A DNA stretch of 64,000 bases from Zygnema cylindricum. Lineage: Eukaryota > Streptophyta > Zygnematophyceae > Zygnematales > Zygnemataceae. The position numbers were made by a program, and so were the translations under genes. The stretch is from positions 1-64,000 of the forward strand of contig JBBHKE010000990.1 in the NCBI GenBank assembly GCA_037447655.1, given 5' to 3'. The stretch's first letter is position 1; each line of letters opens with the position of its first letter. The notes beneath the pieces are model-generated. The model had not been told where the DNA came from and did no database searches. It saw only the letters and a list, made by a program, of their open reading frames with translations. Positions 31,073-63,807 of this stretch are shown here, piece after piece.

Positions 31073-31940
31073 CAGATGTTGAGGCGTAATAGACCAGACC
31101 AGATTTTTATGTTTTTCTTATGGAACTTGACGCAATTCGGTTTACGCTTAACGGAGGCCGAACGACCAAGTTATTCCGAGCCCAATATTGCAGTTTCGCC
31201 ATTTGGGAGCAGTTTCCTACGTCCGTAGCGGAAGGTACATTGTGGAATTGCATGTAACTAATAGGATTGGAATTTAGATCATGCTACTAGAAGTCAGTCG
31301 GACTTTAGTTTAGGTCCAACCGACTTATGGTTCCTTAATTACCTTAGGTCCAAATTCGGCGTTTCAGCTCCACCTAAGAACTTTTGACACGATTAGTGAA
31401 TACAATTTGGACTCTCATTTTTGGATTCAGCTGGAGTCTAAAGTACAACTTTTTGCCTTGAGTGTGGTACGACCTAATTTGTCCTATCTTAGTACTATAG
31501 CAATTGCTGTTCGCTCATTGGCTCTTTGCATTACGTTGACCTTTTTGATCTTAAAATAGACTAACTTTGTTGTATAAGGCACTTGGGGCCGAATTAGATA
31601 GGTTGTTGTTTCAGTACTGTCTCCTAAGAGAACCCTTTGAAAATACCAGCAAACCTATTTTTGAGAAATTTTGTTTGTATGTGATTATGACCCTTTTCCC
31701 ATCTTGCTGTGCCTTTGTCCTTTGTGGAAATCATAGTCCGGTTGGGTAGTTGGCAATATCTTTCTTGTTTGGGCGATTTGGGGACTTGTGGCTATTGGAT
31801 TCCAAGAAGGAACTTGTCGGTTCGGGTCGCTAAAATCGAGGAGTCAAGGGGGACTTTACCTGTTCCGGTGTCTTCGAAGAGACTTGGTCTCCTCTTGTTG
31901 TCAGCGTTGCATTTGAGGTATGTTGAGCTCGCATGTAAAT
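31073..31940 (+). repeat. LTR-like repeat, copy 1 (F-linked)
   Basis: Matches 44843-45690 in the same orientation. Shared landmarks are CTTAACGGAGGCC followed by ACGACCAAGTT, GGTACATTGTG, TTAATTACCTTAGGTCCAA, ACTTTTTGCCTCGAGTGTAGT (as a variant), TTTGATGTATAAGGCACTT and TATGTTGAGCT. Divergence is substantial. No long coding frame. Its left end was removed by K (remnant at 24463-24481). The ends are not defined by a clear TG...CA, and orientation relative to a coding region is unsettled. Confidence 0.7.
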
Positions 31941-32215: not shown

Positions 32216-32908
32216 TTAGGCACGCTCGACACCACTCCTTGCTGGAGTTTTGCATTTTGTAATAATCTGCCTTGGTATTCTTCTTCCCTCCGCTTGGAAA
32301 AAAAGAATTGCTAGATCTCTTTGGCTATATTGGTGGAGCTGGCAAAAAGTTATGTTGCAGAGGATGCCGCATATACAAGGGTACAGTTGGACACCAAGGC
32401 ATTTTTCTTTCCTCGATTCCATAAATCTAAGGGAACCACCACCTTGGTCGTTCGCGATCTTAGGGGTCCCTAACAGTGAACTGCTCCTTCCACACACTCA
32501 ACCCCATATTCACCTTGGTCCATGTTGCCATTCCCAGCAGAATTTCAAAGTGCTTTTCTTCTACCACCAAAAATGGAAGCTGAATGCGGACTCGTTGGCC
32601 CGCGTCATCCGAAAATTGAATTTCCATGGCCTTGATTATTCCATGGACTAGTTGAATTTCGCTGCTGACTATACTCAACCAGATGTCGCTCAAGAAGATT
32701 TCTTGCCTAAGTCCCTCTGGCATCTGCTGTAACGCAGAGGTGGTGATCAAATTTGGGAGCGCCCCAGGATCGACCACTGCATCATCCTCCATATCCATTT
32801 AATTTGAAATTGCTGGTCCGGTTCAGAATGAGGGCCACGGATAAGGCCTTGTAATCCTTGTCTATCATAGAGGTTTCGGGATCCGATGACAAAAAGACGG
32901 ATTTGGGC
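32216..32908 (-). pseudogene. Retropepsin-like segment of retroelement F, copy 2
   Basis: Frame 32460-32798 reads DDAVVDPGALPNLITTSALQQ, then FLVVEEKHFEILLGMATWTKV and MGLSVWKEQFTV. That is the retropepsin pattern D-[ST]-G-A ... ILG, with the active-site triad reading D-P-G. The ILLGM-x-W block is more like Ty3/gypsy-type proteases than copia ones. The second copy at 49720-50310 reads VVDTGH there, so the ancestral form was probably D-T-G-A. Copia element C has inserted at its upstream end (32909). Confidence 0.72.
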
Positions 32909-33909
32909 TGTTGTTCTACGACCACTGGAGCAGGTGGAGCAGAGCAGGTGGAGCAGCTGCAGTAGTAGTAGAAGTAGACATAATTCACCACAGAAGCTTC
33001 CTAAGAATCCTAGCAAACAGCTGCATTCTACAGCTTAGTAAAGTAGACACAAGGTTCCAAACTGCTTCAAATTATACCACACTATAAAGTATCACAAAGT
33101 CTCATAAATTCTAGAGTTTCAACAGAATTGATCTAACAAACACCAAGATATGCAGCTCACAAGTTTCCCAAAAATAGTCTTTAGATTACACAATCAGGAA
33201 GTTAGGATATATAAAATGTTCTATGCCCTAAGTCTTATACTCTTCACTCATTGTCCCACTACATAGTGATATACCGCCAATATAAGTGTTCCTAAAAGAA
33301 ACGTCGAAAAGAACTTAACTACCACTAAGGTCTAAGTGTTTCTTATCACACTAAAACTAATCTATCACTGTACGATCAATATTACTGAGAATCCTATACA
33401 TGTGATTTGTTCAAATACTTGTCGCCTTGCTTAGTGACAATTGTTTGGGTACGTCCATCCGGCTATTGCAGAACATCTGTTAGCGAGTCACTTAATTATT
33501 CTTTTATGAATCTTGTCCGTTGACTTGATTCATATCAACTGTAGCAGCGCAGTCCCATTCTTGATCACATTCAAATATCTGCAGCTTCGTAGCAGCTGCG
33601 CTGTCCTATACCAAAAACAGCCGCAGCTGCTTTTATCTTGTTGCGTAGCAACTGCATTGTCCTGTACTCAAATATCCGCTGTTGCGTTTGTCTTGTTGTG
33701 TCGCAGGCTGCGTACGTGTGTACAGACCATATCAAAGATAACCGCAGCTGCGTTTGTTCCATCTGTGTCGCAACTCCGTTGTTCAAATGCTAGTGTCGAT
33801 ACCATTTAAAAGTCTGCACTGTGCGTCAAGTGACGACGCATGTCCCTATAGATCTCTTTTTCCGCCGTCCTATAAATTTGCTGAGACTTAAAGCTTTTCA
33901 AAAACAACA
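32909..33909 (-). repeat. 3' LTR of element C (second LTR type, carries gag start)
   Basis: 1001 bp. On the minus strand it runs TGTTGTTTTTGAAAAG to GTAGAACAACA. It is followed upstream by the purine tract (AAGCTTTAAGGGAG on the minus strand). Near its end the minus strand encodes MSTSTTTAAAPPA, the gag leader, with a 9 bp duplication that shifts the frame. Between 33575 and 33790 a ~60 bp unit rich in CAGCTGCG and TTGCGTAGCAACTGCG is repeated about three times. It matches the solo LTR at 59430-60387. Confidence 0.88.
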
Positions 33910-42523: not shown

Positions 42524-43231
42524 TTATCCATTGTCTTTTGCGCCCTCCAATGCTACCGCCATAGCAAATAGATCATCATCCTCCTTGTTAGAGAGTGAAA
42601 GAGACTCATCCTGATCAGATGAAGATGCCGAGAAGAGTGCATTTCCTCGTTGTGAAGATCCCGTGGTGCCTTGATGAAGTTGGTTCTGGTGCCATCCAAG
42701 ACTGTACAAACCTGTTTTATTAGCTTTCTTAAGTTTAGGACAAAGTTTATATCCATGACCTTTTCTTACAATAAAAACAAGCATTGAAAGACTGTCTATT
42801 TCCTCTTTGATGAAACTGTTTAGACTGATTATGATTCTCATTAAACTCATTTGTCTGCTGAATAAATTGATCTTTTCTGTCAAATTTTGTGCTAAATGCC
42901 TCTATTTGTTTTTCACCATTAAGAATTTTAGAGTTTGCTTCTTCTTCTAATATCAAATTAATAGTTAACTGTAGTGTCTAGCTAGCTTTATCTTTATGAT
43001 TTAGCCCATCAGACGCTGCTTTCATAATAGTAGGAAGACCTCTCATTAGCAAAACAGACTGCTGAAACTGAGGAAAAGATCCACAGACAGACATACAGGT
43101 GCGGGCGTGGTGAGCCTTTAAAGGTTCCATATCCCAACCCATAACATCATCATCATCCCCACCCACCGTAGCTTCTAGTTCCAACTCCGCTAGCTTTTGC
43201 AGTAGCTCTTGTTTCTTCCGTTTAACTTTTT
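42524..43231 (-). pseudogene. Copia gag (element C), 5' part replaced
   Basis: Readable pieces: SVLLMRGLPTIMKAASDGLNH (capsid end, matching MILMRGLPTIYKEASEQFKRL in M), GEKQIEAFSTKFDRKDQFIQ, and the zinc knuckle split over two frames as CFYCKK and GHGYKLCPKLKKAN near 42730-42790. Above about 43140 the sequence (KRKKQELLQKLAELELEA) no longer matches M, and from 43232 it is F-family sequence in the opposite orientation. Confidence 0.77.
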
Positions 43232-43420
43232 GAGCTACAGTCAGAGCAAGGGTCCGTGAGGAGGATCTTAGACGTAGGGTAGCCAAATTGGCAGCCATCG
43301 CTGCCAGCTATTGTCTATGTTGCTGGATACTATACCCTGGGGTCAACCTTGCTGGAGTTGATGGGGCTCGTTTGGGTCATCCAAGGTGCGACGCCCCCCT
43401 AGGTAGAGAAGCCAGAGGGG
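43232..43420 (+). repeat. Fragment of retroelement F, plus orientation
   Basis: Matches 49508-49690 (GAGCTACA, CCGTGAGGAGGATCTTAGA, TTGGCAGCCATCGC, GCTCGTTTGGGT, GGTGCGACG). In F this segment lies between the zinc knuckle and the protease. It ends where sequence in the opposite orientation begins. Confidence 0.75.
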
Positions 43421-44000
43421 AAGAGGATTTAGTGCAGTTTCTCCTCCACCGATGAACAACGTATACTACATCATTTCTTTTGGAACGCCATTTTTGCGGA
43501 AACATTCCACTTTTTTGTGCCCCATGAAACCACAAGCTTTTCATTTGGAGCCTTCAACGTTATATTTGTTTCTGATCTCATTAGATATTTGGGCATCATT
43601 AAACTTGGGAAGTTTTATTTGCCTCAGCTGAGCTTAAGACATTTTTGTTGTTTCTGCCAGGGAAGTTTGACGGTAAGTGTCCTTGTTCACTGGTGTTTCC
43701 TCTCCCCCAACTTCTTTGTTCCGTCACTGCCCGAGTCCTTCAGACGTTCCTTCTCCAATTTTTCTGTTGCCAGCTGCCCAGTCCTCGACGCCTTTCTCCA
43801 ATTCTTTCTGTTTGATGTCAGTTTCCAGTTTGAGTTTTCAAAGGCAAAGCTTCCACCTATGGTGTGTTTGTTGGCAATTGAGGCAATTATACATAAAATC
43901 TCGGTTATCAATCCCAATTGCGCGTTTTGTCCCGCTGTCAACCACGTGCCCCTTTAAGCTTCTGAAATCTTAGTTTAGCTTTTTCCTCCTAGTTCGGAGG
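43421..44000 (-). pseudogene. F-family gag with zinc knuckles, minus orientation
   Basis: The reverse complement matches 48940-49490. One knuckle reads CLNCQQTHHRWKLC. The second reads stop-K-A-C-G-F-M-G-H-K-K-V-E-C, with TGA at the first zinc position. The same TGA is present in the plus-strand copy at 49348. The long plus-strand frames over this stretch are antisense shadows. Confidence 0.75.
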
Positions 44001-44489: not shown

Positions 44490-44745
44490 AAAGTTATCTG
44501 TCTTATTATCTGACTAATTATCTGAGTAATTATCTGTCTGTATAACCTGTCTAATTATCTGTCTATATATCTATGTAATTATCTGCCTATATATCTACCT
44601 ATCTATCCATTGCTACCTATCTATCTATCTATCTATGTATGTGTTTATCTATGTGTCTATATAATTATCTATCTATGTAATTATCTAATTATCTATCTAA
44701 TACAATTATCTATCTAATCTAATTATCTATCTAATCTAATGTCAA
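44490..44745. repeat. ATCT microsatellite
   Basis: About 255 bp of imperfect (ATCT)n and TAATTATCT repeats. The purest part is CTATCTATCTATCTATCTATG near 44615-44637. The 3' part is a variant with a TAATTATCTATC unit. Confidence 0.93.
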
Positions 44746-44806
44746 ACTCGTGTGCATTTTCAGCACACCTTAATACCACCAAGGATTTCCAAGCCTTTCC
44801 TACCTT

Positions 44807-45700
44807 GTACGGTCACCAGATTACAAAAGAGTGAGTTAACCTTGTTGGACAAAATCCTTGAATTTTTCTAAACTGAGCAGAACGCACTTTATTTCGCGCC
44901 TAACGGAGGCCAGACGACCAAGTTTTACCGTCTCAAATATTGTAATTCCGTTACCGAGGACTAGTTTCCACGAGCCCTCGTAGGAGGTACATTGTGAATT
45001 GCCACGTTACTTTTCAAATTGTCGTTTAAAATATACTATTAGCTGTGAGTAAGAATTGAATTCAGGTTGAGCTGACTTTTGGTCCATTAATTACCTTAGG
45101 TCCAAGTCTGGCACTTTCGTGTCCTTTTTAGGACTGTCTTATAATAGTGGAACAAATAATTACTTCCGGCTGTAGATCTAGCCGCAAACAGGAGCATAAC
45201 TTTTTGCCTCGAGTGTAGTACACATTATTTTGTCTTATGTCAATTCAATTACACTTGCTTGCTGCTCATTGGTTAATAGCCTAACTTTGACTTTGGGACC
45301 TAAAATTGGACAAACTTTGATGTATAAGGCACTTTTGGCCGAAGGAGACACGTTGCTCTTTCAGTAGTGTCCTGATAAAACTCTCAAAAAATCCAAGCAA
45401 CCCTTTTTTTGGAGAATCTTAGTCTTGTGAATGTGTTTTTGACTCTATTGCCATTTTGGTTTTGAATTAGTCATTTGTGGAGATCATAGTTCGGACAAGT
45501 AGTTGGCACTATCCATCCTTTGGATGATCTTTATTTTTTGTTGTTAAAACTGAGAAGAGTACTGTCGTTTCTAAGATGCGAAAACCTCGTGGTGAAAGAA
45601 AATCTTACCTATTTCCGGTACCATCGGGAGGGGTTTCGCCTTCTCTTTGGGTCATCGTTAATTCTTAGGTTATGTTGAGCTTGCTATCATTTTTAATTCT
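44807..45700 (+). repeat. LTR-like repeat, copy 2 (candidate 5' LTR of F)
   Basis: The partner of 31073-31940, in the same orientation, lying some 400 bp before the first F gag-like frame. That position fits a 5' LTR of a plus-strand element, but no clear TG...CA ends, PBS or target duplication can be fixed. No long coding frame. Confidence 0.6.
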
Positions 45701-46123
45701 ATCTTTTATTCTCTTTTTCTGGGGCAAGGTGATATTGTTATATCTCAAAGGGCCTATTATATTTTTTTCCCCATATTTTTGCGTGGAAGTTCAAGTGTGT
45801 CATTTTAGTAGTTCTTCGTGGTTTCGGCGGTGTTGTCCGGAGAAATCTGCCAAAACCCATTGATCAAAACCATGGGTTTTGAGGGAGCACTGGATCCGAC
45901 TTCTAGAGATAAGTATAGTACTTGAAAAGCACCTGTCTGCTCGGATTAGAGGGGATAGGAGCCTTTGACTGTGGAATCCGTCTTTGTTGAATGGAACTAG
46001 GGTTCCATTTTTTATTTCTTTTTTCCTTCCAACTTCCATCATCCTATGGGGGGAGGAGAAACTCCAAATATCGCAATAAGAGAGAAGGGTAGGCAGAAAA
46101 AAGCATGTACAGGAAGAAGGGTC
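45701..46123. other. Possible leader region of F
   Basis: T-rich, then mixed sequence between the LTR-like repeat and the first gag-like frame. It holds an imperfect inverted pair around CAAAACCCATTG and CAAAACCATGGG near 45851-45876. No gene recognised. Confidence 0.4.
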
Positions 46124-46127: not shown

Positions 46128-47722
46128 ATGTCCAAGGAATCCGTCCCAATGGCGTCCGTCTTTGATTCTCTGGCCATGGAACCATCTAGGGCACTGGCTC
46201 CTCCACCTCCTCCTAGCCTTACTCCCAAAAATGTCCAATCTTTGGCTGAGGACGCCAGGGCCGAGGCCGAGGAAAGGAAAAAATTATCTCCCACGGAACG
46301 ACGAAAGAGGTTAGCCCATAGAGGGCCCACTTTTAGGTCCTCTTCAAGAGGTCGGCTTTCATACTCAATCTAAGATATCCAAGGCCGAAATTCCTATTGA
46401 CCTCGCAGTGTTGGCGGATCCACGTCGTCCTAGTCTCAAAGAACTCCTTGCTCTTCACGACCTCCATTAGTTGAAGGTTAAGAAGGAGTTGGGGCAGAGA
46501 GTGGCGGGAACAAATCGAGGCAGGGTGGTTAGATATGTGGGAGGGGTCGTGGAGATTCTAAGCAGTTTTTTGTAGAGCAATTCTTCAGAGTCGGTACAAG
46601 ACTGGTTCCGAAGGGCTCCCTATCCTCATCCTCCTCCATCTTCCTCCCTGGACACTTCTGCCAGCAGGCTATCTAGGGGATATCTTACTTCGGGATCTCG
46701 TCAAGGAGAAGGGATTGGCAGGAGGAAATCACGAGATCCTAGGAAGGGAAAGAGGTTCGACCATCATGACAGCAAGGGAAGATTAGTCCCTCTTCCTAAG
46801 GAAACACCTCCCTACCTCCAGTGTCAGCCTCAACTAGGAGACCTTCTCTAGGAACATCTCTCGTGTGCCCTTCCGGAGGATTCCGGCGATCCGAACCTAT
46901 AGATCCAGAGGTTCTTAGCACGTGGCACAAGATTTGTCTAAAGGGTGGTGGCAAACTAGGCCTAACGACCAAGAGATTCTGGGTATGGGAATAACGGATC
47001 TGACTAGTGTAGTCAACATAACACACGAATTGGTGAATACTGTGAAATCTCAAGGCAAGGCTACAGCGGGGGCCGCATCTGCCACGATAGATAGGGAGGC
47101 CTTGGAGGTAGAAAGGCGAAATTTATGGGAACAAGAATTGAAGCTTGTTCGAGAAGCTCGGCGTAAGTACAGTGGGATTCTTAGGGGGGAGATTCCCCCT
47201 TTGCCAAGGACAAGGCACCATTTGGAAGCGCCAACTCAAGGCACCACACCTATTGTACACCCTCAACCCGACATTCCTCCTTCAGAGAATAACTGAGAGA
47301 CTTCTCTTCAGTGGGAAGGGGGCAGGATCATTAAACCTAATATGAAAGGTTTGGGTGCAGATTTACCTCCTGAATACGTAGTTACTCCTCGTGAAGGACC
47401 TACTTTTTTCTCGTTGGAGGTCTCTTCAGCCGTGGAAGCTATGGTGGAGTTAAAACCGGATAAGAGAATTCACATTCCTTTAAGACTGTCCACCCCGCCA
47501 TCACAGAGAGTATCCCTAGATCTTCCTTGCTCTCCTCCTCCACCTCCTTTCTCTCAGTGCCCACGACCTATCTCCGAGTCGAAAAACATTCCCACCTCAC
47601 TCTCTTGGTTGGTGGTCAAACATCATGTCACTTCCACTTATCTTTCAACCAAAATTCTAGCCTATTTTCCCCCTCAGCAAGGTTCTCGTACTTCTAGTTA
47701 CGAAGCCCTACCTTCCTCTTGA
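46128..47722 (+). pseudogene. Gag-like N-terminal frames of retroelement F
   Basis: Frame 46128-46373 reads MSKESVPMASVFDSLAMEPSR and a basic, Glu-rich helix (EDARAEAEERKKLSPTERRKR). Frames 46922-47296 and 47342-47722 lie in one reading frame separated by a single stop at 47294, giving about 266 codons: a helical KSQGKATAGAASATIDREALE region, an aromatic and proline-rich segment and PCSPPPPPFSQC. I do not recognise a domain. Position upstream of zinc knuckles and a protease suggests gag. A tail region up to 48600 is heavily interrupted. Confidence 0.5.
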
Positions 47723-48080
47723 TCTGGACGCACGTCCTGAGAGAATACACTGTATCCCAGGCAAGGGCCTTCATCATCACCTTCGTCTTTGTCCTTCCGA
47801 GGTACTCTACCAAATCTGCAGATCCCAACTGGGCGAACAAGTCGTCGGACTCGGACACCCTCCGCATCATAGGGACCAGGGGCCATTTCTGTGGGGAACA
47901 CCCTTCCTCTAACTATTTTTTTAGGGGCAAACACTTCCTCAGTGGGAGGGAGATCCACCTCTCTTAGAGTAACACCTTCTACTGGAGAAGGAGACAGTTT
48001 TGGCCCCGAAGGCGAGGACCCAGGAGTCATCTCACCCGCTCTATTTGTCAGTTGTACCAGGCTGTCCTCTCCATAGTTTA

Positions 48081-48995
48081 CTAACTTGCCATTGAAGAGA
48101 AGGAAATGGGGGACATTAGGATCTTTAAAAAGATAACTCGGGGATAGCTTTTTTTGATTTTGAATTGTTGTGGAAATATTTCACCGAATCCGAGATCAAT
48201 AAATATAAGGGAAGAGCCATTTCGGATGACTTCGAGACCACCCTTTTCCGCATGATGGTCAACTACCTTTCTAGGGTGCTTTGGCGGACTACATGGAGCG
48301 ACTACCACTCTTGATGGCCCTTAGCATCAAAATTTCAGACCCTATTCTCAATGTGGAGGTTTTACAAGCGGAAGTTGACATAGCTAGCAGGGACTACTGC
48401 TGTCATCACCACCTTTACAGATGATATAAAGCTACAGGCACAAGGACGAGCTTATGTCAACCAGCTGTAAGTTATTCAAGCCACCCAGGCTTCAACTTAA
48501 ATGGTAGCAAATCCCACCCCTTGTACTACTCTGTTGAACATTTGGAGAATTTAGTACATTAAAAATAATGAGTCCGTCATCAAAGAATTCATGGAATTCT
48601 GGTGTTTGAAGAATGAAACACCACATACTCTCTTCAATCGACAATCCAGCCTCTGTCAGAAAACCAAGCTGTCAACTAACCAAGCTGTCAACTGTTGACC
48701 TTCTAAATATGGCCACGAAATATTTTCTCGCTGTCCGCAATTCGTTCGGGCCAACAGGGCAAACTGCTCTGGATAACTGGATTTTCGGTCAAGCAATTCA
48801 TGACATTATTCCTCCGCTAAAGACATTTCTCTGTTGGCGATTAAAATGTAGAACCACTTCGTCAACAGTGAGGCAAGTGAAAAAGCACTAAGCGGCAAGG
48901 CTCGGGTGAATTTTGCAGGGTTCGCCGTGGAAACCTCCTTGAACGAGGAGGAAAAAGCTGAACTTCAGGCTTAACGGAAGCTTAAAGGGAAACAC
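48081..48995 (+). pseudogene. F gag capsid-like region, broken
   Basis: Readable pieces include KYFLAVRNSFGPTGQTALDNW and IFGQAIHDIIPPLKTFL in frame 48613-48891, then a frame change to KSALSGKARVNFAGFAVETSL and NEEEKAELQA before a stop. A compact helical segment just before zinc knuckles is what a retroelement capsid would give, but I cannot match it to a named family. Residual similarity continues to 48081 without a clear frame. Confidence 0.45.
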
Positions 48996-49450
48996 GTGGT
49001 TGAGAGCGGGTCACAACCCGCAATGGGGGCGGATGACCAAGTTTTCCTGTTTAATTGCCTTAATTGCCAACAAACATGTCATGGGTGGAACCAATGCTCG
49101 AAAAACTTAAAATCGAACTTGCCCTCCAACAGAAAAAATGGGAGAAGGAACTTGCTGAGAGGACTCGAAAAGCAGCAAGAACGAAACAAAGAAGTTAGGG
49201 GGGGGGGAGAAAACACCAGTGAACAAGAAAACCTACTGTCCAACTTCTCCGGTAGAAACAACAAACATTTCTCAAGCTTAGGTGAGGCAAATCAAAGTTC
49301 CCAAGTTTGATGATGCCCAAATATCTTATTAGATCATAAGCAAATATTGAACCAAAGGCTCCAAATGAAAAGCTTGTGGTTTCATGGGGCACAAAGAAGG
49401 GCAATGTTTTCGCAAAAATGGGGTTCCGAAAGAAACAATGTAGTATGCGT
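48996..49450 (+). pseudogene. F gag zinc-knuckle region (two CCHC boxes)
   Basis: Frame 48996-49310 contains CLNCQQTCHGWNQC near 49054-49095, a perfect C-x2-C-x4-H-x4-C. In another frame, near 49348-49390, the sequence reads stop-K-A-C-G-F-M-G-H-K-E-G-Q-C-F: a second knuckle whose first Cys codon is TGA. A G-run near 49198-49208 probably marks a frameshift. Such knuckles bind genomic RNA during packaging. Matched by 43421-44000 in inverted orientation. Confidence 0.78.
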
Positions 49451-49719
49451 TGTTCACCAGTGGAGGAGAAACTGCAGTGAATCCTCTCCCCCTCCAACTT
49501 TGAGTGATTGAGTTCTGAGCTACAATGAGAGGAAGGGGCCGTGAGGAGGATCTTAGATGCAAGGTTGCCTATTTGGCAGCCATCGCAGCCAATTGTTATC
49601 TTTTTTGTTGGATAAAATTCTCCCGAGTCACCCTTGTTGGAGCTTATGAGGCTCGTTTGGGTTCATCCATGGTGCGACGACTCATGGGAAGAGTAAATTA
49701 GCTTTGGAGAATCCGCCCA
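49451..49719 (+). pseudogene. Gag-protease spacer of F
   Basis: Decayed coding sequence matching the fragment at 43232-43420 (EEDLRCKVAYLAAIAANC in one frame). No domain recognised. Confidence 0.5.
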
Positions 49720-50330
49720 AAGGCGTCTTTTTGTCATCAGATCCCAAAACCCCTATGATGGATAGGGATTAGAAGGCCTTATCCGTGGCCCTCATTCTGA
49801 ATCGAACCGACAATTTCAAGTTAAACGGATACAAAGAATGATGCAGTGGTCGATACCGGGCACTCCCAAACTTGATCACCACCTCTACGTTTTAGCAGAT
49901 GCTCGAGGGACTAAGGCCAAAAATCTTCTTGAGCGACATATGTTTGAGTACAGTCGACAGCTGAAGTAAGCCATTCCATGGAATAGCCAAGGCCATGGAA
50001 ATTGATTTTCGGATGACGTGGGGAACGAGTCCGGATTCAACTTCCATTTTTGGTGGTAGAAGGTAAGCAGTTTGAAATTATGCTACGAATGGCAACATGG
50101 ACCCGGCTGAATATGGGGTTGAGTGTGTTGAAAGAGCAGTTCACTGTTAGGGACCCTCAAGATCCCCAAGGGACCAAGGTGGTAGTTCTTTTAGATTTAT
50201 GGAATCGAGGAAAGAAAAATGCATTGGTGTCCAACTGTTACCCTGTATATGCGACATCCTCTCCAACAAAACTTTTTGCCAGCTCCACCAATATAGCCGA
50301 AGAAATATAGCAATTCCCTATTTCCAAGCG
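49720..50330 (+). pseudogene. Retropepsin-like segment of retroelement F, copy 1
   Basis: Colinear with 32216-32908. It reads ALSVALILNRTDNFKLNGY, then NDAVVDTGH (D-T-G of the active site), IRLPFLVVEG-like and, in frame 50050-50310, MVVEGKQFEIMLRMATWTRLN and MGLSVLKEQFTVRDP. The usual ILG is M-L-R here. Stops and shifts separate the active site from the C-terminal half. It lies directly upstream of the methyltransferase domain. Confidence 0.72.
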
Positions 50331-50460
50331 GTGGGAAGAAGAATAACATGGCAGATTATTACAAATTGCGATACTACGACGGGGAGTGGATTAGACTTTT
50401 TCAACCTTATTACTAAAGGAGACAGTCTCAAACCTTTGGTCGTAAGCTTAAGAAATCCTA

Positions 50461-51520
50461 TCTGAAAACGAGAAATTTATTCAACAAGTAGTGCTATAGA
50501 CAATTCCAGATTTAAGACTTAGGATCGTATCGCTATTTTCTGGAATCAGTTCTGATTTGGAAGTGGTATTTAAAGCAGAATACAATGTGGAATCCTATGC
50601 AGCCGTGTAGATATCACCCAAAGCATGAGCTGTCAGCGAACACCTCCTACAACAGCTTTACCACCTATATCCTCTTCAACTTCTTGTGTCTGCAGTTTCC
50701 AAAGCTCATCGGAGTCTCCCCTGGAATGTAGAAAACATCAATACACCTCATTTAGCAAGTCAAGAAAGGGTGGAGCTGGTAGTAGCGGGGTGGCCTTCTC
50801 AGTGATACTCCCTAGCAAGACAAAGAAAATGGTATCAGTAAAGGAGGAGTAGAACATTTTTTAACATGGTGTAGTTAATCTCATGGGTACAACAGCTCCA
50901 AAACACACCTGTGGGGTACATTTTGGAGAATGTCCACCCGAGGATGACACACGAAGACATGTGGCCGACGGTTGGAATCACGTTACCCATATTATAGAGG
51001 CTCCATTAGTCTTTGATGTAGCACAGATGGGATCCCGGGCCCACCGAGTTAAGGCTTACTGGACTAATTTGATCCAGCTTCCCGTCCTCAAGAAATTCTT
51101 GGAGAAGCAGATCCCATACCCTCAAAATCCGGTGCAGCAGATCCTCGAAAAAAGGTGAATGGCAACACGCGTGACAAAAACCGACAGTTCGCGTTCTTCT
51201 GTTGTAACAAGCCTAGATTCCCACGCCAAGCATTTCCCACCTTGGTTTCCTTCTCTCACGGCCACGAATATCGGAACAGAACAGCTGGCATGATCTTTGA
51301 TAGTGCAGGAAGAATTTGGACAACATCGACAATTGCAAAACAAGAAAAGGCTATGGGAATCCATCCGCGCACCACAGCCGCACCAGACATATCAAACCTC
51401 CAAAGGTGCAGCTTAATAGGGCAGAGCATTGATTTGAATGCAATCACATGGGTCTTAAGGAACAAAAAATATACAAGACCGGTTGTGATTGGACAAAGAA
51501 AGAGTGACTGTGATTGATCC
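50461..51520 (+). pseudogene. C5-cytosine DNA methyltransferase domain in retroelement F, inactivated
   Basis: Three successive frames give the motif series of a C5-cytosine methyltransferase in canonical order. Motif I, RIVSLFSGI, is at about 50521-50547. An SAM-pocket-like segment AEYNVESYAAV follows. Motif IV is at 50788-50802, reading GWPSQ where G-[WS]-P-C-Q/N carries the catalytic Cys. Motif VI, YILENV, is at 50917-50934. Motif VIII, GSRAHRVKAYWTNL, is at about 51030-51071 in frame 50883-51158. A C-terminal block with AMGIHPRTTAAPDIS and LIGQSIDLNAITW is in frame 51155-51517. Order I-IV-VI-VIII-C-terminus excludes the permuted plant DRM type; it is DNMT3- or Dcm-like, subfamily unresolved. 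The Cys-to-Ser change, at least six stops and two frame changes make it non-functional. It follows the F protease by about 200 bp with coding-like sequence between. A nuclear pseudogene that merely lies next to F is the alternative. Confidence 0.82.
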
Positions 51521-53710: not shown

Positions 53711-54753
53711 TGTTGTTTTGAAAAGTTAGTTTCGTGATTACGAGACATTTTTTGCGTAACTGCTAAGTGGATTCAATATAGAGGCTCGAATAGATTCACG
53801 AATTGGGGGAGCGAACGTACGGATATAATTAAAGTGGCGTGAATAGGCACTAACAAATGGATGCTTGATCGCGAAGCGATCCGATGTGGAATAAGCGAAA
53901 TATTGAAATAGGCGTTGCCCCTATAGTGCAGCTGCGACGCAAACGAGACAACGCAGCTGCAATTACTTTGGAAAAATATGCGTCGGCGGTACGGCGGAGT
54001 TGCGACGCAGTTAAGTCAACTCAAATGCGGTTATTTTTATGATCCGTATGGACAGCGCTGCTAGCGCAGCTCCGGATAAAATGTATAGGATAGATTTCGA
54101 GTAGTGATGATTGTACGGTAGTGGTAGCTTAGTAGTTGCTAAGCGGTAGCTTGGTTTTTGACATACGAAGATTTCGGAGATCTCGGTGTAAATATTCAGT
54201 ACAACAGAGGTTTGTCCTTCTGGCTAATTAGTTTATTAGAGTAGATAGGGTTAGGTAGTATGCCTCCGTACATTTAGTAGTGAACTCTCTAAGTATAACT
54301 TACAGGACTTAGATTATGTTGTGTATCGCAGTCAAGTCTTATCAAAGCAATGGCAAACTGATTTCGGTATCTTTGACCTGTTGGTGTGATCACTTTATTT
54401 GGTGCTTTCATGTGAAACTTTGTGGAGTTATTTTGAGATATAGAGTATATATGTGTGTGAAGTTTCATTTTATTTAAGTATCTATGTAAGATTCCGTAAG
54501 TAGTCTAAGTGGTTAGTTGATAAGTTGTCAGTTATTTTTGTGAAACTGTGGAGCTTATATCTTCTTGATTCCTTGGTGGATTTCCTTATATCTTTGCGAT
54601 CTTATAGTGTTTATAGCATACAACTTATACGTGCAGTTTGACGGGATTTTGTCTATTGTGGACTATTCTGTACTGTGTGAAACAGAACTGTGTGAGGGGT
54701 AGTCCATGGAGCTTGTGAAAGTAATCCATGCCTGAAATTGGCTATGGACAACA
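53711..54753 (+). repeat. 5' LTR of element E
   Basis: 1043 bp, TGTTGTTTTGAAAAG to GGACAACA, followed by GGTTA, the first bases of the half-tRNA PBS. Over the visible part it matches the LTR at 63822 with few differences. It contains TGCAGCTGCGACGCAAACG and related GC-words near 53935-54065. Left flank AACTT. Confidence 0.82.
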
Positions 54754-54758
54754 GGTTA

Positions 54759-55760
54759 TGTTGATCACAGGCAGCTGATGCACCTGAAGAAGAAGAAGAA
54801 GCAGGAGAACCAGTAATTGCCATAATCACAATCAAAGTACAAAGAGGAAATTCTCACGAATACCCACAAATGACCAGCTTCACAATGAAGCTCCAAGCAA
54901 GCCAAACACACACTAGGTCTACAAATTTGCCACAAAAAAGAAAATACACCAAAGAAAATACATGCAAAATTTCACAAAGTTTTGCCAAAAGTTCACAATG
55001 ATCTTACAATTCAAAGAACCCCAAATAACTGCTTCGCAGTTTTTTCATTCAAGGAATTCCTAACTTCCACAATATTCTAAGTCCTACATATATAAGTGTG
55101 CATACAGCTGATCTAAACCGTACCACAATTATCGTGGTCCACCCGTACACTAAATATTTACCAAACCAAACTTTTGTTGTCTACTGTACAAAGTATTTAC
55201 ATCAACCTTTAACTCTAACCGTCGCTAAAGTGTGCAACAAAAGTTCGTTCACCGAAATGACAGAGCAGTCAATATTTCTCTTCTAAAAATGACGACAAAC
55301 TCAGTTCGCCGTCCACGCGTTCATTTATCACTGATATATGAACCTCCACGTGTAAATCCGGTCCCCAAATGAATTTGTACTTCGCCATCCAAATCAAACA
55401 ACCTTCACTCCTCCACGGACCGACACGTGTGCCTAGGGTGTACCATGTTTGTGTATCCCCTTTGGAGTTACATACAACACTAAATCTTGTCTTCGACAAT
55501 TCATCTTTCATACAAACTGCTATAGCTGCGATGCTTTGCCAACGCAACTGTAAGGTTTAGAGCAGCGCAGTTGTTCACTCAAACTGCTATGGCTGCGGTG
55601 TTCTACCAGCGCAGGTAGCGCAGCTGTGATATTAGAGCAGCGCAGCATAGCAACATAGCAACGAAATAAACAAAGTATTTTTGCTGCAATGTCAAACTTA
55701 CCGCAGCATGGAAGTATAGCAGTGAGATAAAAAGAGGACTAAAGGTTTCCAAAAAGAACA
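54759..55760 (-). repeat. 3' LTR of element M (also carries a gag start)
   Basis: 1002 bp. On the minus strand it runs TGTTCTTTTTGG to CTGTGATCAACA. Near its end it encodes MAITGSPASSSSSGASAA, the gag leader. A run of GCGCAG and CATAGCAAC words lies near 55557-55720. It is preceded on the element side by the purine tract (AAAAGTTTAGGGGAG on the minus strand). Confidence 0.87.
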
Positions 55761-55783
55761 CTCCCCTAAACTTTTAGACTCTA

Positions 55784-56480
55784 TCATTCACTAAGTCCAC
55801 ATGCCTCTCTACAAAATGTCAATTTAGGAGCAGGTAAAGGCTTAGTCATCTTATCTACAACCATCATCTCATCCCGTAAATAACTTAGTTTCAAAATTCT
55901 ATTCATCACTTTCTCCATTACAAAATGTAGCTTGATATCAATGTGTTTGCTTTTGAAGTGATGACTTGGGTTAGATGCAATTGCTATAGCTGCCTGGTTA
56001 TCACACCACACTATTTGAGGTCCCAATTGCATGAAATGAAGTTTTTGAAGGAGAGATTTTACCTAAAGTAACTCCTTGACAGCTGAGCTAGCTGTCACGT
56101 ATTCAGCCTCCATTGTAGAGTGAGCTGTGACTTTTTGAAGCTTGCTGCTATAGCATCATGTTCCACTCCCAATATTTAGAATGAATCTGATAGTGGAGCG
56201 GCGACTTGGAATGTCTCCGTAACTCGCATAGCTCCAAGTTTGAAATTTTACTTCATCTCCGCCTAGAGCAAGTTGCAGATTATGTGTTCCTGCAAGGTAT
56301 TGAAGAAACCTCTTTGTTGCCTCTTAATCGAATCTCCTCGGATTTTGTAAACTTCGGCTTAAAACACCGACTGCTGCCCCAATATCCGGACGTGTGCAGT
56401 TCATTAAGGAGATTAGACTGCCCACAATATGACGATATGGAATGGCAGCCATAGAATCAGCCTCCTCTGATTCCCATGTG
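55784..56480 (-). pseudogene. Copia RNase H (element M)
   Basis: Frame 55784-56032 reads VWCDNQAAIAIASNPSHHFKS, LHFVMEKVMNRILKLSYLRDE and MTKPLPAPKLTFCREACGLSE. The upstream half is interrupted by a stop after the M-E-A-E-Y-V-T region near 56060-56130. The 82-residue frame is identical to the frame at 61912-62160. Confidence 0.87.
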
Positions 56481-57320
56481 TCATTAAAAAATAACTCTTC
56501 TATCTGTCTCCGTGCCTTCCACCTTTTGTTTAAATTCCATGGGAGTGGCACTTCCTTTTGCCTTTGCGATGCCAAACTTTTCAAGCATGTTCCCAATTGC
56601 TTCCCGCTGCGTTAGATAGATTATTCTTCGAACTCTATCCATTTCTACTTGAATTCCAAGAATGTACTTTGCCTCCCCTAAATCTTTCATCTCAAATCTT
56701 GAATTCAAGGCTGCCTTTATTTTGTTAATGTCATTTAATGACTTACTAAGTAGCAGCAAATCAACTACATACACCTCAATGTAAATAATCCCATTTTCCC
56801 CTTCCATAACATAGACTGAGTGATATGAACTTATCCTCACAAAGCCTAGAGTAGAAAGAAACTCATCTAGTTTCACATTCCACTAACATAGAGCCTGCTT
56901 CAGTCCATACAAGTATTTCAACAGCTTACAGACCACATTTTCTTTTCCGGACTCTTCATACATTTCAAGATATTTCATACAGATCGCTTCCTCTAAATCT
57001 ACATGCGAAAAGGTCGTCTTAACATCCATTTGATGTAACTCCATATTCTCAATGGCTACTAAAGACAATAAAATTCTAACAGTGGGAAAGCGGACAACCG
57101 ATGAGAAAGTCTCTTCATAGTCAATTCCCTCCTTTTGACTATAACCTTTTGCAACAAGCCTGGCCTTATATCTTTCATTTGAATTATCCGTGTTCAGCTT
57201 AACTTTAAAAACCCACTTACACCCGATAGCTTTCAGATCAGGTGGAACCTCCTGAAGCTCCCAAGTTTTAACCTCCATTATAGATCGCATTTCGTCATTC
57301 GCCACAAATTCCATTGATCC
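56324..57320 (-). pseudogene. Copia reverse transcriptase (element M), YVDD lost
   Basis: Frame 56883-57314: GCKWVFKVKLNTDNSNERYKA in part, RLVAKGYSQKEGIDYEETFSS, LHQMDVKTTFSHVDLEEAI, VVCKLLKYLYGLKQA. Frame 56484-56876: FEMKDLGEAKYILGIQVEMD and, at the catalytic site, YVVDLLLLSK. The YVDD box reads Y-V-V-D, which would abolish polymerase activity. Frame 56324-56596 continues with YRHIVGSLISLMNCTRPDIGA. A stop at 56882 separates the halves. Confidence 0.9.
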
Positions 57321-57990
57321 TTTTCTAGGGCTGAAAAAGCTTCATGTATGGTGACTGGCTCCATCATGGTGGCAGAAAATAGAACATTCTCCACATGGTC
57401 ACTTAGCTGCCTCGTAGCTTCGCAGCCTTGCAGCCTGCTACTTAGAGCATTCTTTCGCCCGAAAAATCTGAGGCTGGAACTGTTGGAGCCAACCGTGTCC
57501 GCCGAGGAGGAGAAGGAGGAGGAGGAGGAGACCGAGTAGGTCCTACCTATTAAATCACCGGAATGTCCGGAGTATGAATAGGAGTTGATCCTCTGCCGAC
57601 AGATGAGGAAGAACTTGTAGCAGATTGAAGAGGAACATTGTCAAAAATTATGTATTCTTGAATTTTGGCATTTTTCTCATAATCTGTCATGCTAAAAACA
57701 TCAACCGAGTGACTCTTTTCTTTAATCTGCATATTCCAATCTTCCTGAAGAGTTTTCCTATCCATATTGTATACTCTATAGCCTACGTAATCATCATCAT
57801 ACCCCATAAAAATTCCGAAAACCGATTTCGGATGAAGCTTAGAAATAAGAAGATTATCTAAAATAAAGCATTTGCTACTAAAAACTCGGAAGTGACTCAC
57901 ATTGGGTTTTCTTCCGGTCCACATTTCATATGGCGTATTACGTTTTATTGCTCTAGTTTCTATTCTATTCCTAATATAAGATGCACAAGA
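57321..57990 (-). pseudogene. Integrase C-terminus and linker (element M)
   Basis: Frame 57550-57924: MWTGRKPNVSHFRVFSSKCFI, GIFMGYDDDYVGYRVYNMDRK, then a Ser-rich linker. On the minus strand 57480-57540 is a (TCC)n-rich, Ser-coding stretch. The linker matches that of C at 35600-35763. Confidence 0.83.
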
Positions 57991-58029
57991 AAAAGCTTCA
58001 CCCCAAAACTTAAAGTCTATCCCTTTATC

Positions 58030-58641
58030 TTACATCATAGATTTTGCACTCTCGGTTAAAGTCCAGCTAAGTTTTTCCGATACTCCGTTTTGCTTCGGAG
58101 TATAGGGGACTGTAAATTGACAAGAGATTCCATTTTCTTTTAAATAATCTGAAAATACATTAGAAATACACTCTCCTCCGTTGTCGGACCGAAGGGAGAG
58201 AATCGGCTTCCCGTGAAGTTTTTCCGCCCTAAGTCGAAAGTGCTTGAAGTGAGTAAACACTTCACTTTTTTCCTTCAGAAGGTAAACTTTGCTGTATCGG
58301 GAGAAATCATCTATAAAAGTAACTAATAACCGGATGCCAGAAAGTGAATGGACTTTTAACGGTCCCCACACATTTGAATGAATTACTTGCAATAAATTTG
58401 TGGTCTTGTTATCCGCGGTCTGAGGTAGGGGCAGCTTGTGAAGCTTTCCCAAAGCACAGCTATCACATACATAAGACTCTTTTTGTCCTAGTTTGACACC
58501 ATATATCATATTTTGCTTTACCATTTTATCAAGCCTTTCATGATGAACATGACCGAGCCTCTTATGCCACAAAACATATTTTGGAAGGACACTAGAGTAT
58601 GTAAAATCAATTTCATTAGCCAAGTCCATCCGGTATAACAT
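58030..58641 (-). pseudogene. Copia integrase core (element M)
   Basis: 203 open codons: HKRLGHVHHERLDKMVKQNM, CDSCALGKLHKLPL (zinc finger), VIHSNVWGP (first catalytic Asp is Asn), FIDDFSRYSKVYLLKEKSEVF, LRSDNGGECISN (second Asp kept), PKQNGVSEKLSWTL (Glu kept). The one Asp-to-Asn change inactivates it. Confidence 0.92.
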
Positions 58642-58762
58642 GTTTGGGCCTCTAGTTCCTACGAAGGCTACTCTCCCATCTTTGTTTACTACCTTTTACC
58701 CTTTTTTTTTGCAAAATTTCAAAACCTTTCATTTCAGCCACCGAAGTAGAAAAAAAGTTTTT

Positions 58763-59429
58763 CTAAAATTTTGGAATATAGACAACATCATGTAACGTCC
58801 TCTTTACAATTTGACAATTGATGTCACATGCTAACTCCACGCTTCCCTTTGCCATAGCTTCCATACCGCTGTCATCTGCATAATAAATTTGACGTGTGGG
58901 AATTGGAGTGAGGGTTTTGAAGTAAGTTCGGTTGCCACACATGTGCGAAGAGCACCTGGAATCCATAATCCAACGGTTCTCTTGAGGACCCTCCATGAGA
59001 TCTTTCGCAAGATCAAAGAATTCATCATCATCAGATTGCGAAAATCTGACCACATCGTCTTTTTCTTCTTCCGGTTCATCTTGTTGCATCTTGTCAATTG
59101 CAAAGAAAGCCGTATTTTTAACCGGCATTTTTGATGCCGAAAATTTTGGTGCGGAATCCTCCGATCGCACTTTCCACCCCGCAAGATAACTTCTTGTTTC
59201 ACGTGCTTTTATAAATGCCGGAAACAACCGAAAAACATGACCTTGACCAAAACAATAGACACATCTATCATATTGCCTAAAACTCGGATTAGGACTAAAA
59301 TTCCTATTTCTTTAAAATCCAGCCGGACAATATGTCTGAGCATTGTAAGCTACTGCTAAATGTCCTCCATTCAATGCTATGTGATTTCCCTTTTCCTCTA
59401 GAATGTAAGCTTTAGCTACAGCTATATTC
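58763..59429 (-). pseudogene. Gag C-terminal part and protease (element M)
   Basis: Frame 58763-59227 reads through SEDSAPKFSASKMPVKNTAFF, an acidic hinge and the protease site IMDSRCSSHMCGNRTYF, where the Gly of D-S-G is Arg. It ends SVELACDINCQIVKRTLHDVV. Upstream, near 59235-59270, the zinc knuckle reads CVYCFGQGHVFRLF (last Cys is Phe), preceded by AVAKAYILEEKGNHIALNGGH, where the solo LTR is inserted. Confidence 0.85.
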
Positions 59430-60387
59430 TGTTGTTCTACGACCAGTGGAGCAGGTGGAGCATCAGCAGTAGTAGTAGAAGTTGACATAATCTCACTCAC
59501 AGAAGTTTATCAAGAATCCTGTTAAACAGCTGTTTTCTACAGCTCACCAAGTCTAATATAATGAACCAAACTGCATCAAACTATACCACAGTATAGAATA
59601 TCACAAAGACTAACAAATCTCAAAGTTTAAGCTCAATTGATCCGACATACACCAAGATATGCAACTCAAAAGATTCCCAAAAACAGTTTGCAGATTACAC
59701 AGTCTGGAAGTCTGGATACATAAAATGTTCTAAGTCCTGAGTCTTATACTCTTCACTCACTTGTCCTACTACATACTGTTGTACCGCCGATACAAGTGTT
59801 CCTAAAAGATACGTCCAAAAGAACTAAACTGCCACTAAGGTCTAAGTGCTCCTAATCACACTAAAACTAATCTATCACTGTACAATCAATATTACTGAGA
59901 ATCCTATACAAGTGATTTGTTCAATTACTTGTCGCCTGGCTTAGTGACAATTATCAGGGTATGTCCATCCGGCTGTTGAGTCACTTAATTATTCTCTTAT
60001 GAATCTAGTCCGTTGTCTAGATTCATATCAACCGTAGGAGCGCAATCTGATTTCAGATCACTTTCAAATACTGCAGCTTTGTAGCAGCTGCGGTGTCCCG
60101 TACAAAAAACCGTCGCAGCTGCGTTTGTCTTGTTGCGTAGCAACTGCGTTGTCTTATACCAAAATATCCGCAGTTGCGTTTGTCCCGTTGCGTCGCAGGC
60201 AACGTTCGTCCGTATAGACCATATCAAAAATAACCGCAGGAGCGCTTATTCCATCTGCGTCGCAACTGCGTTGTCGGTACCATTTAAAAACCTGCACAGT
60301 GCTTCAACTGTCGACGCGTGTCCCTATAGATCTATTTTTCCGCCGTCCTATGAATTTGTTGAGACTTAAAGCTTTCTAAAAACAACA
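59430..60387 (-). mobile_element. Solo LTR of the C type in the gag of M
   Basis: 958 bp, TGTTGTTCTACG to AAAACAACA on the plus strand, with perfect target duplications TATTC at 59425-59429 and 60388-60392. It matches 32909-33909 throughout, including the in-LTR gag leader MSTSTTTADAPPAPLVVEQQ (minus strand, around 59430-59489). The gag of M is continuous once it is removed. Confidence 0.93.
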
Positions 60388-60392
60388 TATTC

Positions 60393-60963
60393 CAACTACT
60401 CTTTCCCTAATCTCTTAAACTGTTCCGAGGCTTCTTTATATATAGTAGGAAGCCCTCTCATTAAAATCATTGTTTGATGATAAGGAGGAAAATTCCCCCC
60501 AAAGCATGCATTTTCTCACAACAGAACTTTCAAACCACTACAGTATGATTTCATATCACCCCTAGTATGTTTATAATTTCAATTTTTTCCAGCAATTATA
60601 ACCTCATTCTCCTTAATAGCTATGACATGAGATTCTCTCAAACTCTTCTATAATTCAAATGCCGTAGTGATACTTATATATGTCATATTTAAGTCTTCCG
60701 AAAAAATAAACTTGAGAACATGTAATGCATCCTTGTTTTTCTTTTCAAAATCTGGGTCCATATCTAGAAGAACACCAAAAACCACATCATACAACTGTAC
60801 TTGCTTAAGGTAAGATTTAGTCAAATCAGCCCAATGCATATATTTTTCCCCATTAAACATCGGGGTCTGTGATGGCGGGCGCGTGACTTGTTGATTTGAG
60901 GCAGCTGGTGCCCTTGAAGAAGAAGAAGAAGCAGTAACAGCAGCAGTTGCTATAATCACAATC
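60393..60963 (-). pseudogene. Gag N-terminal part (element M)
   Basis: Frame 60648-60965 reads from the LTR leader (ATAAVTASSSSSRAPAASNQQ) through the PBS into VTRPPSQTPMFNGEKYMHWAD and DLTKSYLKQVQLYDVVFGVLL, then FIFSEDLNMTYISITTAFEL, the copia gag capsid. The leader ATG of this copy is ATA. Downstream pieces (MILMRGLPTIYKEASEQF) run to the solo LTR. Confidence 0.85.
60874..60888 (-). other. Primer-binding site of element M
   Basis: The minus strand reads AGTCACGCGCCCGCC, aligned to the consensus GGTTATGGGCCCACC with five differences, four of them A/G or C/T changes. Gag reads through it as QQVTRPPS. Confidence 0.6.
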
Positions 60964-61888
60964 AAAGTACAAAGAGGAAACTCTCACGAATACCAACCAA
61001 TGACCAGCTTCACAATGAATCTCCAAGCAAGCAACAAACACTAGGTCTGCAAATTTGCCACTATAATGAAAATACACCAAAGAAAATACATGCAAAATTT
61101 CACAAAGTTGTGCCAAAAGTTCACAATGAACTTACAATTTAAAGAACCCCAAATAACGGCTTCGCAGTTTTTTCATACAAGGAATTCCTAACTTCCACAA
61201 TATTCTAAGTCCTACTTATACAAGTGTGCCTATAGCTGATCTAAACAGTACCACAATTATCGTGGTCCACCCGTACACTAAATATTTACCAAACCAAACC
61301 TTCGCCGTTTGCCGTACAAAGTATTTACATCAACCTTTAACTCTAACCGCCGCTAAAGTGTGCAACAAAAGTTCGTTCACCGAAATGATAGCGCAGTCAA
61401 TATTTCTCTTCTAAAAATGACGACAAACTCAATTCGCCGTCCACGCGTTCATTTATCACTGATATATGAACCTCCACGTGTAAATCCGGTCCCCAAATGA
61501 ATTTGGACTTCGCCATCCAAATCAAACAACCTTCACTCCTCCACGGACCGACACGTGTGTTTGGGGTGTACCAAGTTTGTGTACTCCCTTTGGAGTAACA
61601 TACAACACCAAATCTTGTCTTCGACAATTCATCTTTCATACAAACTGCTATAGCTGCGATGCTTTGCCAACGCAACTGTAAGGTTTAGAGCAGCGCAGTT
61701 GTTCACTCAAACTGCTATGGCTGCGGTGTTCTACCAGCGCAGGTAGCGCAGCTGTGATATTAGAGCAGCGCAGCATAGCAACATAGCAACGAAATAAACA
61801 AAGTATTTTTGCTGCAATGTCAAACTTACCGCAGCATGGAAGTATAGCAGTGAGATAAAAAGAGGACTAAAGGTTTCCAAAAAGAACA
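60889..61888 (-). repeat. 5' LTR of element M, shared with the partial copy M2
   Basis: 1000 bp matching 54759-55760. The half nearest 61888 looks identical to its partner. The other half differs at scattered positions (for example near 61295-61315 against 55165-55185). Confidence 0.88.
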
Positions 61889-62665
61889 CTCCCCTAAACT
61901 TTTAGACTCTATCATTCACTAAGTCCACATGCCTCTCTACAAAATGTCAATTTAGGAGCAGGTAAAGGCTTAGTCATCTTATCTACAACCATCATCTCAT
62001 CCCGTAAATAACTTAGTTTCAAAATTCTATTCATCACTTTCTCCATTACAAAATGTAGCTTGATATCAATGTGTTTGCTTTTGAAGTGATGACTTGGGTT
62101 AGATGCAATTGCTATAGCTGCCTGGTTATCACACCACACTATTTGAGGTCCCAATTGCATGAAATGAAGTTTTTGAAGGAGAGATTTTACCTAAAGTAAC
62201 TCCTTGACAGCTGAGCTAGCTGTCACGTATTCAGCCTCCATTGTAGAGTGAGCTGTGACTTTTTGAAGCTTGCTGCTATAGCATCATGTTCCACTCCCAA
62301 TATTTAGAATGAATCTGATAGTGGAGCGGCGACTTGGAATGTCTCCGTAACTCGCATAGCTCCAAGTTTGAAATTTTACTTCATCTCCGCCTAGAGCAAG
62401 TTGCAGATTATGTGTTCCTGCAAGGTATTGAAGAAACCTCTTTGTTGCCTCTTAATCGAATCTCCTCGGATTTTGTAAACTTCGGCTTAAAACACCGACT
62501 GCTGCCCCAATATCCGGACGTGTGCAGTTCATTAAGGAGATTAGACTGCCCACAATATGACGATATGGAATGGCAGCCATAGAATCAGCCTCCTCTGATT
62601 CCCATGTGTCATTAAAAAATAACTCTTCTATCTGTCTCCGTGCCTTCCACCTTTTGTTTAAATTC
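61889..62665 (-). pseudogene. Partial second copy of M (RNase H and RT end)
   Basis: Repeats 55761-56537 at a constant offset of 6128 bp, with no differences seen in the parts compared. Frames 61912-62160 and 62334-62582 encode exactly the same peptides as 55784-56032 and 56206-56454. It breaks off at 62665, after GTTTAAATTC, where the sequence of E resumes. Confidence 0.92.
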
Positions 62666-63540: not shown

Positions 63541-63795
63541 CTGTGATGTCAAAATTGCGCAGCATGGCAGCATAGCAGTACAAGCTGCATATTTTACTCG
63601 TACTAGGCTGCAATGTTGAATTAACCTAGCATGACAGCATAGCACTACACGCGGCACTTCGTGTTCATACTGCGCTGCGATGTCAAACTAGTGAAATGTA
63701 GCAGCATAGCAATACACGCTGTACTTTTACTGCGCTGCGATATTGAACTAGCGCAGCGTAGCAACATAGCATTACACGCAGAATGTTTTTTTGAG
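63541..63795 (+). repeat. Tandem repeat of ~65 bp units before the E 3' LTR
   Basis: About four imperfect copies of a unit containing CTGCGATGTCAAACTAG, GCAGCATAGCA and TACACGC. Similar words lie upstream of the 3' LTR of C (33940-34060) and inside the LTRs of M. Confidence 0.75.
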
Positions 63796-63807
63796 TGCAC
63801 GAAACTA

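Follow-up and report, generated by a model that had tools for sequence, protein, structure and literature searches.

Transposons are normally the targets of cytosine methylation, and circular DNA is usually taken as a dead end for long terminal repeat (LTR) elements. Split direct repeats in the order A1-B1-A2-B2, together with a tyrosine recombinase and no target duplication, characterize the DIRS/PAT elements, and plant chromoviruses have a Ty3/Gypsy pol with a chromatin-reading domain behind the integrase. The closest described system is KnitGypsy-Dnmt3 of Klebsormidium nitens, a Gypsy element that bears a methyltransferase (MT) and has DIRS-like repeats (de Mendoza et al. 2018, PMC5890265); that article reports the Klebsormidium capture as independent and sees no relationship between the MT elements of Symbiodinium and those of Gypsy type. 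Here we have analysed a window of 64,000 nucleotides from Zygnema cylindricum (assembly GCA_037447655.1, contig JBBHKE010000990.1, positions 1 to 64,000 of the forward strand), in which we have found what is probably the 5' half, now dead, of a retrotransposon of the Ty3/Gypsy type with a DNMT3-like MT in its pol region. The probability that we give to this reading is roughly 0.68, a joint figure for the whole best explanation, including the integration route through circles that is proposed below.

The element remnant spans 44740 to about 51463 on the plus strand and comprises a left terminal unit, gag, protease and a C5-MT (Table 1). A sequence-only reading had placed a retroelement-borne MT at 49720..51520, and all the motifs that it named lie where it had put them (RIVSLFSGI at 50521, GWPSQ at 50788, YILENV at 50917, GSRAHRVKAYWTNL at 51030 and LIGQSIDLNAITW at 51413). 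Its proposal of an MT spread over three frames in canonical order was also borne out, as the pieces align collinearly, with 54-59% identity and a best E of 2e-101 in tblastn, with L014, a genomic open frame of this family. The boundaries had to be redrawn, since the element starts far upstream, at 44740, and the similarity ends near 51463 and not at 51520. As for the protease and two gag zinc knuckles of that reading, there is a DTG at 49852, and knuckle-like stretches read by eye lie within gag at 49056 and 49375, the second of them without its first Cys; the protease of the L014 open frame matched Asp_protease_2 with E 2.1e-4 and 22.3 bits, below the cut-off of 24.3. When the frame pieces were searched with their stops masked as X, the first matched PF00145 at 21.7 bits (E 1.5e-4), just below the cut-off of 22, and the other three pieces sent to Pfam gave no significant family. 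Furthermore, the MT DNA of the window matches 40 scored places in the genome (of 544 candidates, itself included), the others being 71-85% identical, so that the match is not due to chance. A search of viral contigs for MT relatives with the first window piece gave 11 pattern matches, none of them confirmed. That this copy is dead, as had been proposed, is clear from six stops in 50461-50940, two frame changes and a 3' break at about 51458-51463, and from the motif IV Cys of active C5-methyltransferases, which is Ser in GWPSQ. The MT similarity stops just 3' of the LIGQSIDLNAITW block and no reverse transcriptase (RT) lies downstream in the window copy.

The genome (353 Mb in 2689 contigs) contains at least 123 scored matches to PF00145 among 782 candidates, all 123 above the cut-off and many within long open frames. 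Twenty of these places were examined with 10 kb around each; they were picked for score or long open frames and are not a random sample, and their domain order was read with our own profiles. The original proposal would have been refuted if protease and MT were never adjacent elsewhere, and we have found that the MT follows the protease in all 20 loci. RT and RNase H lie behind the MT in 18 of them, an integrase in 17 and a C-terminal PHD finger in 15, and at these 15 loci the full order is protease, MT, RT, RNase H, integrase and PHD. Three of the five loci without PHD (L015, L023 and L025) also lack the integrase, L022 has a partial integrase, and at L021 the stretch fetched is too short. 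The sequence-only reading had named recurrent linkage of gag, protease, MT and RT between LTRs as the confirmation of a capture; in other genomic copies, terminal repeats enclose linked protease, MT, RT, RNase H and integrase. The C1344 copy is one frame of 2395 codons between identical repeats (A units) of 931 bp, in which Pfam recognizes PF00145 (E 2e-11) and PHD (E 1.5e-9) as well as RT, RNase H, integrase and, weakly, a zinc knuckle; several copies have an uninterrupted frame through MT, RT and RNase H or beyond. C2366, the sibling of the window copy (85% identity over the MT), has the part from RT to PHD behind its MT, with breaks, and its upstream gag part is in the opposite orientation. 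The genomic relatives show the Gypsy pol order RT-RNase H-integrase, before which the window copy is cut. The domain order recurs in the genome, and the best copies are open and recent.

The MT of this family is DNMT3-like in sequence and fold, being of the non-rearranged Dnmt3 type and lying inside the pol reading frame. All 10 full-length MT domains of this genome outside the window have retained the motif IV Cys and EN[VI], and the ratios of non-synonymous to synonymous substitution (dN/dS) among open copies indicate purifying selection, with a finite estimate in 10 of the 21 pairs printed. Alignments and ratios together show that the MT of the open copies retains its predicted catalytic residues and evolves under constraint. 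Some data call for caution in this respect: the dN/dS sample consists of open copies, pairs below 60% identity were dropped, 11 of the 21 MT pairs were saturated, and the sole NCBIfam family named for two of the MT domains is the bacterial dcm, below the cut-off.

The family has relatives outside Zygnema. Three protein searches for kin were made, the last one giving the best 120 of 2741 matches. Among the matches listed, P0157 and P0188 of Marchantia polymorpha contain both MT and RT; Closterium sp. NIES-53/54 has at least six proteins with an MT by our own profile, plus P0047, whose identity to the open frames compared with it does not exceed 47% (alignments of more than 100 residues); and Haematococcus lacustris has P0075, P0187 and P0189 with MT and RT, the MT match being partial in the last two. 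RT relatives from Klebsormidium and Tetraselmis were also among the matches listed, as were many metagenome proteins. The idea of a retroelement family that took up an MT is supported by the recurrent linkage, but the capture is not exclusive to this family, as relatives in Marchantia, Closterium and green algae have it too. Two architectures can be distinguished: in architecture I the MT precedes the RT (the Zygnema cylindricum genome, Marchantia and Closterium), and in architecture II, seen in Haematococcus and in many metagenomes, it lies between RNase H and integrase. A DPxxGxGT-like motif is found behind the PHD finger in 9 of 39 PHD-bearing relatives with tails of more than 150 residues (P0072, P0073, P0080, P0081, P0093, P0095, P0101, P0203 and P0204), and four of them also have SPPF. 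Motifs of this kind are those of amino-methyltransferases. Pfam backs them weakly, the P0101 tail matching MethyltransfD12 with E 0.0028, below the cut-off; some elements may carry two kinds of methyltransferase.

In a tree of RT and RNase H with 138 rows, from which MT proteins without the full RT-RNase H stretch were left out and in which animal and Asteraceae Gypsies served as outgroup, all 75 MT-bearing rows (26 of architecture I, 9 of our own and 40 of architecture II) fall within one clade of 116, with a Shimodaira-Hasegawa-like approximate likelihood ratio (SH-aLRT) support of 97. The same clade holds 35 rows whose frame starts too near the RT to judge the MT and six further rows; a subset of 57 RT rows recovers this split with an SH-aLRT of 96. 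In a tree of the MT with 77 rows, architecture I (33) is separated from architecture II (44) with support 99. All of these are quick trees without bootstrap. Two Gypsy relatives without a recognized MT, P0212 and P0215, have a PHD finger between RNase H and integrase and lie just outside the MT clade. It is possible, if somewhat doubtful, that Gypsy lineages captured related DNMT3 genes on two occasions, at a site before the RT (I) and at another between RNase H and integrase (II): the MT and RT trees both separate the two architectures with high support, and domains seldom move within pol. However, a single RT clade takes in all the MT-bearing rows, most of which have a PHD finger at the C-terminus, and leaves out the sampled Gypsies that lack an MT. 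This point is not decisive, because the MT tree does not include host DNMT3 and some rows cannot be judged for MT. The picture of one clade of MT-bearing rows is weakened by P0200, a PHD-bearing row inside architecture II that shows no MT, by the long branches of several rows in the RT-RNase H tree and by its outgroup, which does not form one side of a branch (even with the best branch, five of its seven rows are on the wrong side), yet lies entirely outside the clade. We read these trees as one old MT acquisition with one domain move or as two captures from a common source, between which the data do not choose.

The terminal repeats of this family are not canonical LTRs, that is, two equal and complete repeats, since the left end has A only and the right end A-B. 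The copies show split repeats in the order A1-internal-B1-GC-A2-B2. In C1344, A1 occupies 15-945, B1 9238-9479, A2 9482-10412 and B2 10413-10655; GC joins B1 to A2 inside the palindrome GACAGCTGTC, TGTC and GACA form the outer ends, TTGG is found on both flanks and a G-tract lies 5' of B1. The relatives thus combine DIRS-like split repeats with Gypsy domains (the window copy shows A1 only), and Pfam finds rve and H2C2 integrase domains in the C1344 frame and lists no recombinase domain, which sets them apart from DIRS elements. The exact palindrome is present in eight of the nine MT loci whose ends were fetched, and an 18-mer around it occurs at 336 genomic sites with at most one mismatch, the reversed control occurring at one. 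We examined 20 palindrome loci, 8 chosen by MT and 12 from the palindrome list. B2 lies downstream in 19 of them (at C143 the stretch ends at B2), its right end being partly a matter of construction because a match was required within 8 bases of the B1 end. Target duplications of 4 bp are exact in four of the seven copies with both ends, and C1811 and C449 agree in three of the four bases; the distances between A1 and A2 range from 0 to 0.14. In two subfamilies, of five and four copies, each copy has letters of its own at the A2/B2 joint, and the joint takes four lengths per subfamily with a spread of up to four bases, in alignments of about 110 columns that contain no other internal gap. In 18 of 19 loci, the exception being C71, B2 begins with the base that in B1 comes within a few bases after a run of at least five G, and in copies that have A1, the end of A2 corresponds to the point at which A1 passes into the internal region.

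This anatomy of the joint (the variable A2/B2, the G-run before B1 and the end of A2) looks like that of the joined ends of a reverse-transcribed linear DNA. The element would be copied as an LTR element into linear DNA with repeats of the form B-GC-A, with a polypurine tract before B and a primer site after A. The ends of this linear DNA would then be joined to each other, giving a circle with an A-B joint, and the integrase would open the circle at the internal palindrome GACA-GC-TGTC and insert it with a 4-bp target duplication, producing A1-internal-B1-GC-A2-B2. Opening of an end-joined circle at the palindrome would give the observed repeat order, and the loss of GC at the outer ends fits the 3' processing by integrases, an activity established for retroviral integrases; it is from the anatomy that we infer such an opening.

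Several observations do not favour this route. The repeat start of C1848 has no palindrome, and the constancy of the palindrome at the 20 loci is partly due to choice, as 12 of them were drawn from the palindrome list; B2 was not found at C1170, one of these 20; C1374 has no target duplication and contains an extra internal stretch; in the subfamily of five copies, the joints of C449 and C1063 are equal in length, with different letters; and no primer site beginning with TGG was found 3' of A1 in the six copies read. The split repeats could instead be a fixed, inherited DIRS-like arrangement in which A2-B2 is copied from the template each time, making an end-joined circle unnecessary. Such repeats are present in PAT-type DIRS elements. 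A DIRS-like repeat structure has also been described for the Klebsormidium Gypsy-Dnmt3 (PMC5890265). We consider this alternative unlikely, as the copies compared in the two subfamilies all differ precisely at the joint and the elements have an rve integrase and target duplications.

Regarding the MT, it could methylate the DNA of the element itself before or during insertion, so that this DNA would resemble host chromatin or, being an intermediate, would be protected; the PHD finger could steer the complex to chromatin. Self-methylation is plausibly the simplest use for an MT kept inside pol, and this proposal, together with the steering by PHD, is put forward with less confidence than the circle route. 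The observed/expected CpG ratio is 0.88 in the young C1344 copy, 0.60 in the window copy and 0.64 in the whole window; the old window copy is thus at the level of its surroundings, which makes it uninformative on self-methylation. According to PMC5890265, two SymbioDIRS MTs methylate CG in yeast; the Klebsormidium MT gave no methylation of yeast DNA, which speaks against our proposal, a result that the authors call inconclusive. The MT could also act outwards, disturbing host methylation or silencing competing elements, as DNMT3-type enzymes act on chromatin and the PHD finger could target histones. However, the location of the MT inside pol, beside protease and RT, suggests that it is packaged with the DNA synthesis of the element, and we regard an outward role as rather improbable. 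In the most complete form of our proposal, which we advance tentatively and with somewhat less than even confidence, one ancient LTR lineage of green plants would integrate from end-joined circles by means of a DDE integrase acting at the internal palindrome, with the DNMT3-like enzyme methylating the circle and the PHD finger guiding it to chromatin. Finally, the alternative of an MT from a host gene or pseudogene that lies by chance beside a retroelement remnant, as the broken window copy without RT behind its MT might suggest, is extremely improbable and was rejected because of the recurrent linkage, given the adjacency to the protease in 20 of 20 loci, the open frames through MT, RT and RNase H or further and the same domain order in proteins from other organisms.

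Much of the window (1-44000 and 54000-64000) is filled by broken Copia-type elements. It has 17 open frames of at least 140 codons, 10 of which were scanned; eight correspond to Copia-type gag, gag-pre-integrase, Pol_BBD, RVT_2 or rve, and two had no match. Further copies of the MT-bearing family have left remnants in the window (Table 1). A tandem repeat rich in CTAT/CTAA (44498-44739) lies immediately 5' of the left end of the element, 54759-56537 and 60889-62665 are direct copies with 97% identity, and 6411-10510 is an array of related repeats, in which many pairs share about 70-83% of their letters and have offsets close to multiples of 100 bases. The window contains no tRNA and no Rfam family at the gathering threshold. 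In the genome there are 88 matches to light-harvesting genes, which show a green host, with dense clusters on both strands in contigs C519, C2590 and C1116. Two of these genes were compared with known chains. The first scores 504 bits with a multi-repeat chain, then 416-422 with three chains that we take to be Lhcb3 (7oui_2 carries this name) and no more than 378 with chains of type 1 or 2; the second scores 551 with that multi-repeat chain, then 463 and 462 with 8htu and 7xqp. Lhcb3 is a protein of land plants, and 8htu and 7xqp are moss entries, so that these scores, taken by themselves, would make a land plant probable. PF00016 (rbcL) was not found in the genome; PF01698 gave no match either, but its controls were equally silent.

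Table 1. Parts of the MT-bearing element and remnants of further copies, in window positions.
Feature	Positions	Strand	Basis
Left terminal repeat (A1 unit)	44740..45791	+	First letters TGTC, like C1374 A1; blastn 45180-45791, 71%; right end not fixed
Gag region, broken	46396..49428	+	tblastn with L013 and L014 open frames, best E 7e-110
Retropepsin-like protease remnant, DTG at 49852	49671..50307	+	tblastn with L014 3577-4413, E 7e-69
DNMT3-like C5-methyltransferase remnant, three frames	50311..51463	+	tblastn with L014, E 2e-101; PF00145 E 1.5e-4
Second protease remnant, same family	32314..32925	-	tblastn E 3e-68; blastn 32232-32908 vs 50389-49715, 86%
Second A-unit remnant	31450..31823	+	blastn vs C1374 A1 unit, 72%
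Gag remnant from further copy	43090..43966	-	blastn and tblastn

Among the papers listed by searches of the open-licence literature, we have found no report of such an element in land plants, of its PHD finger or of a palindrome and joint structure in Gypsy elements. Within these limits, the presence of the element in this genome and in Marchantia is new, together with its PHD finger, the second architecture and the shared lineage, and so is the anatomy of palindrome, joint and duplication. An MT-carrying lineage that apparently extends over both chlorophytes and streptophytes, a liverwort among them, makes it possible to test what advantage methylation brings to a transposon. Moreover, split repeats with a variable joint are a readable record of each insertion, and they point to integration from circles.

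The family described here shares with KnitGypsy-Dnmt3, as presented in PMC5890265, its Gypsy nature, a non-rearranged MT of Dnmt3 type in pol, DIRS-like repeats and purifying selection. It differs in the PHD finger (a term that does not occur in the main text of that article) and in the palindrome, variable joint and target duplications described here, with at least 123 scored PF00145 matches. The Klebsormidium protein P0145 has its RT inside the MT clade; it is a partial frame without MT and may not be the published element. These trees suggest a lineage common to green plants rather than an independent capture in K. nitens. SymbioDIRS-Dnmt3 and SymbioLINE-Dnmt of Symbiodinium are likewise retrotransposon-borne MTs under constraint, but they belong to other superfamilies, DIRS and LINE (PMC5890265). 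With respect to the two groups introduced at the beginning, our family resembles the DIRS/PAT elements in its split repeats and differs from them in its rve integrase and 4-bp duplications, whereas, in comparison with the plant chromoviruses, it has a PHD finger instead of the chromodomain and, in addition, a methyltransferase.
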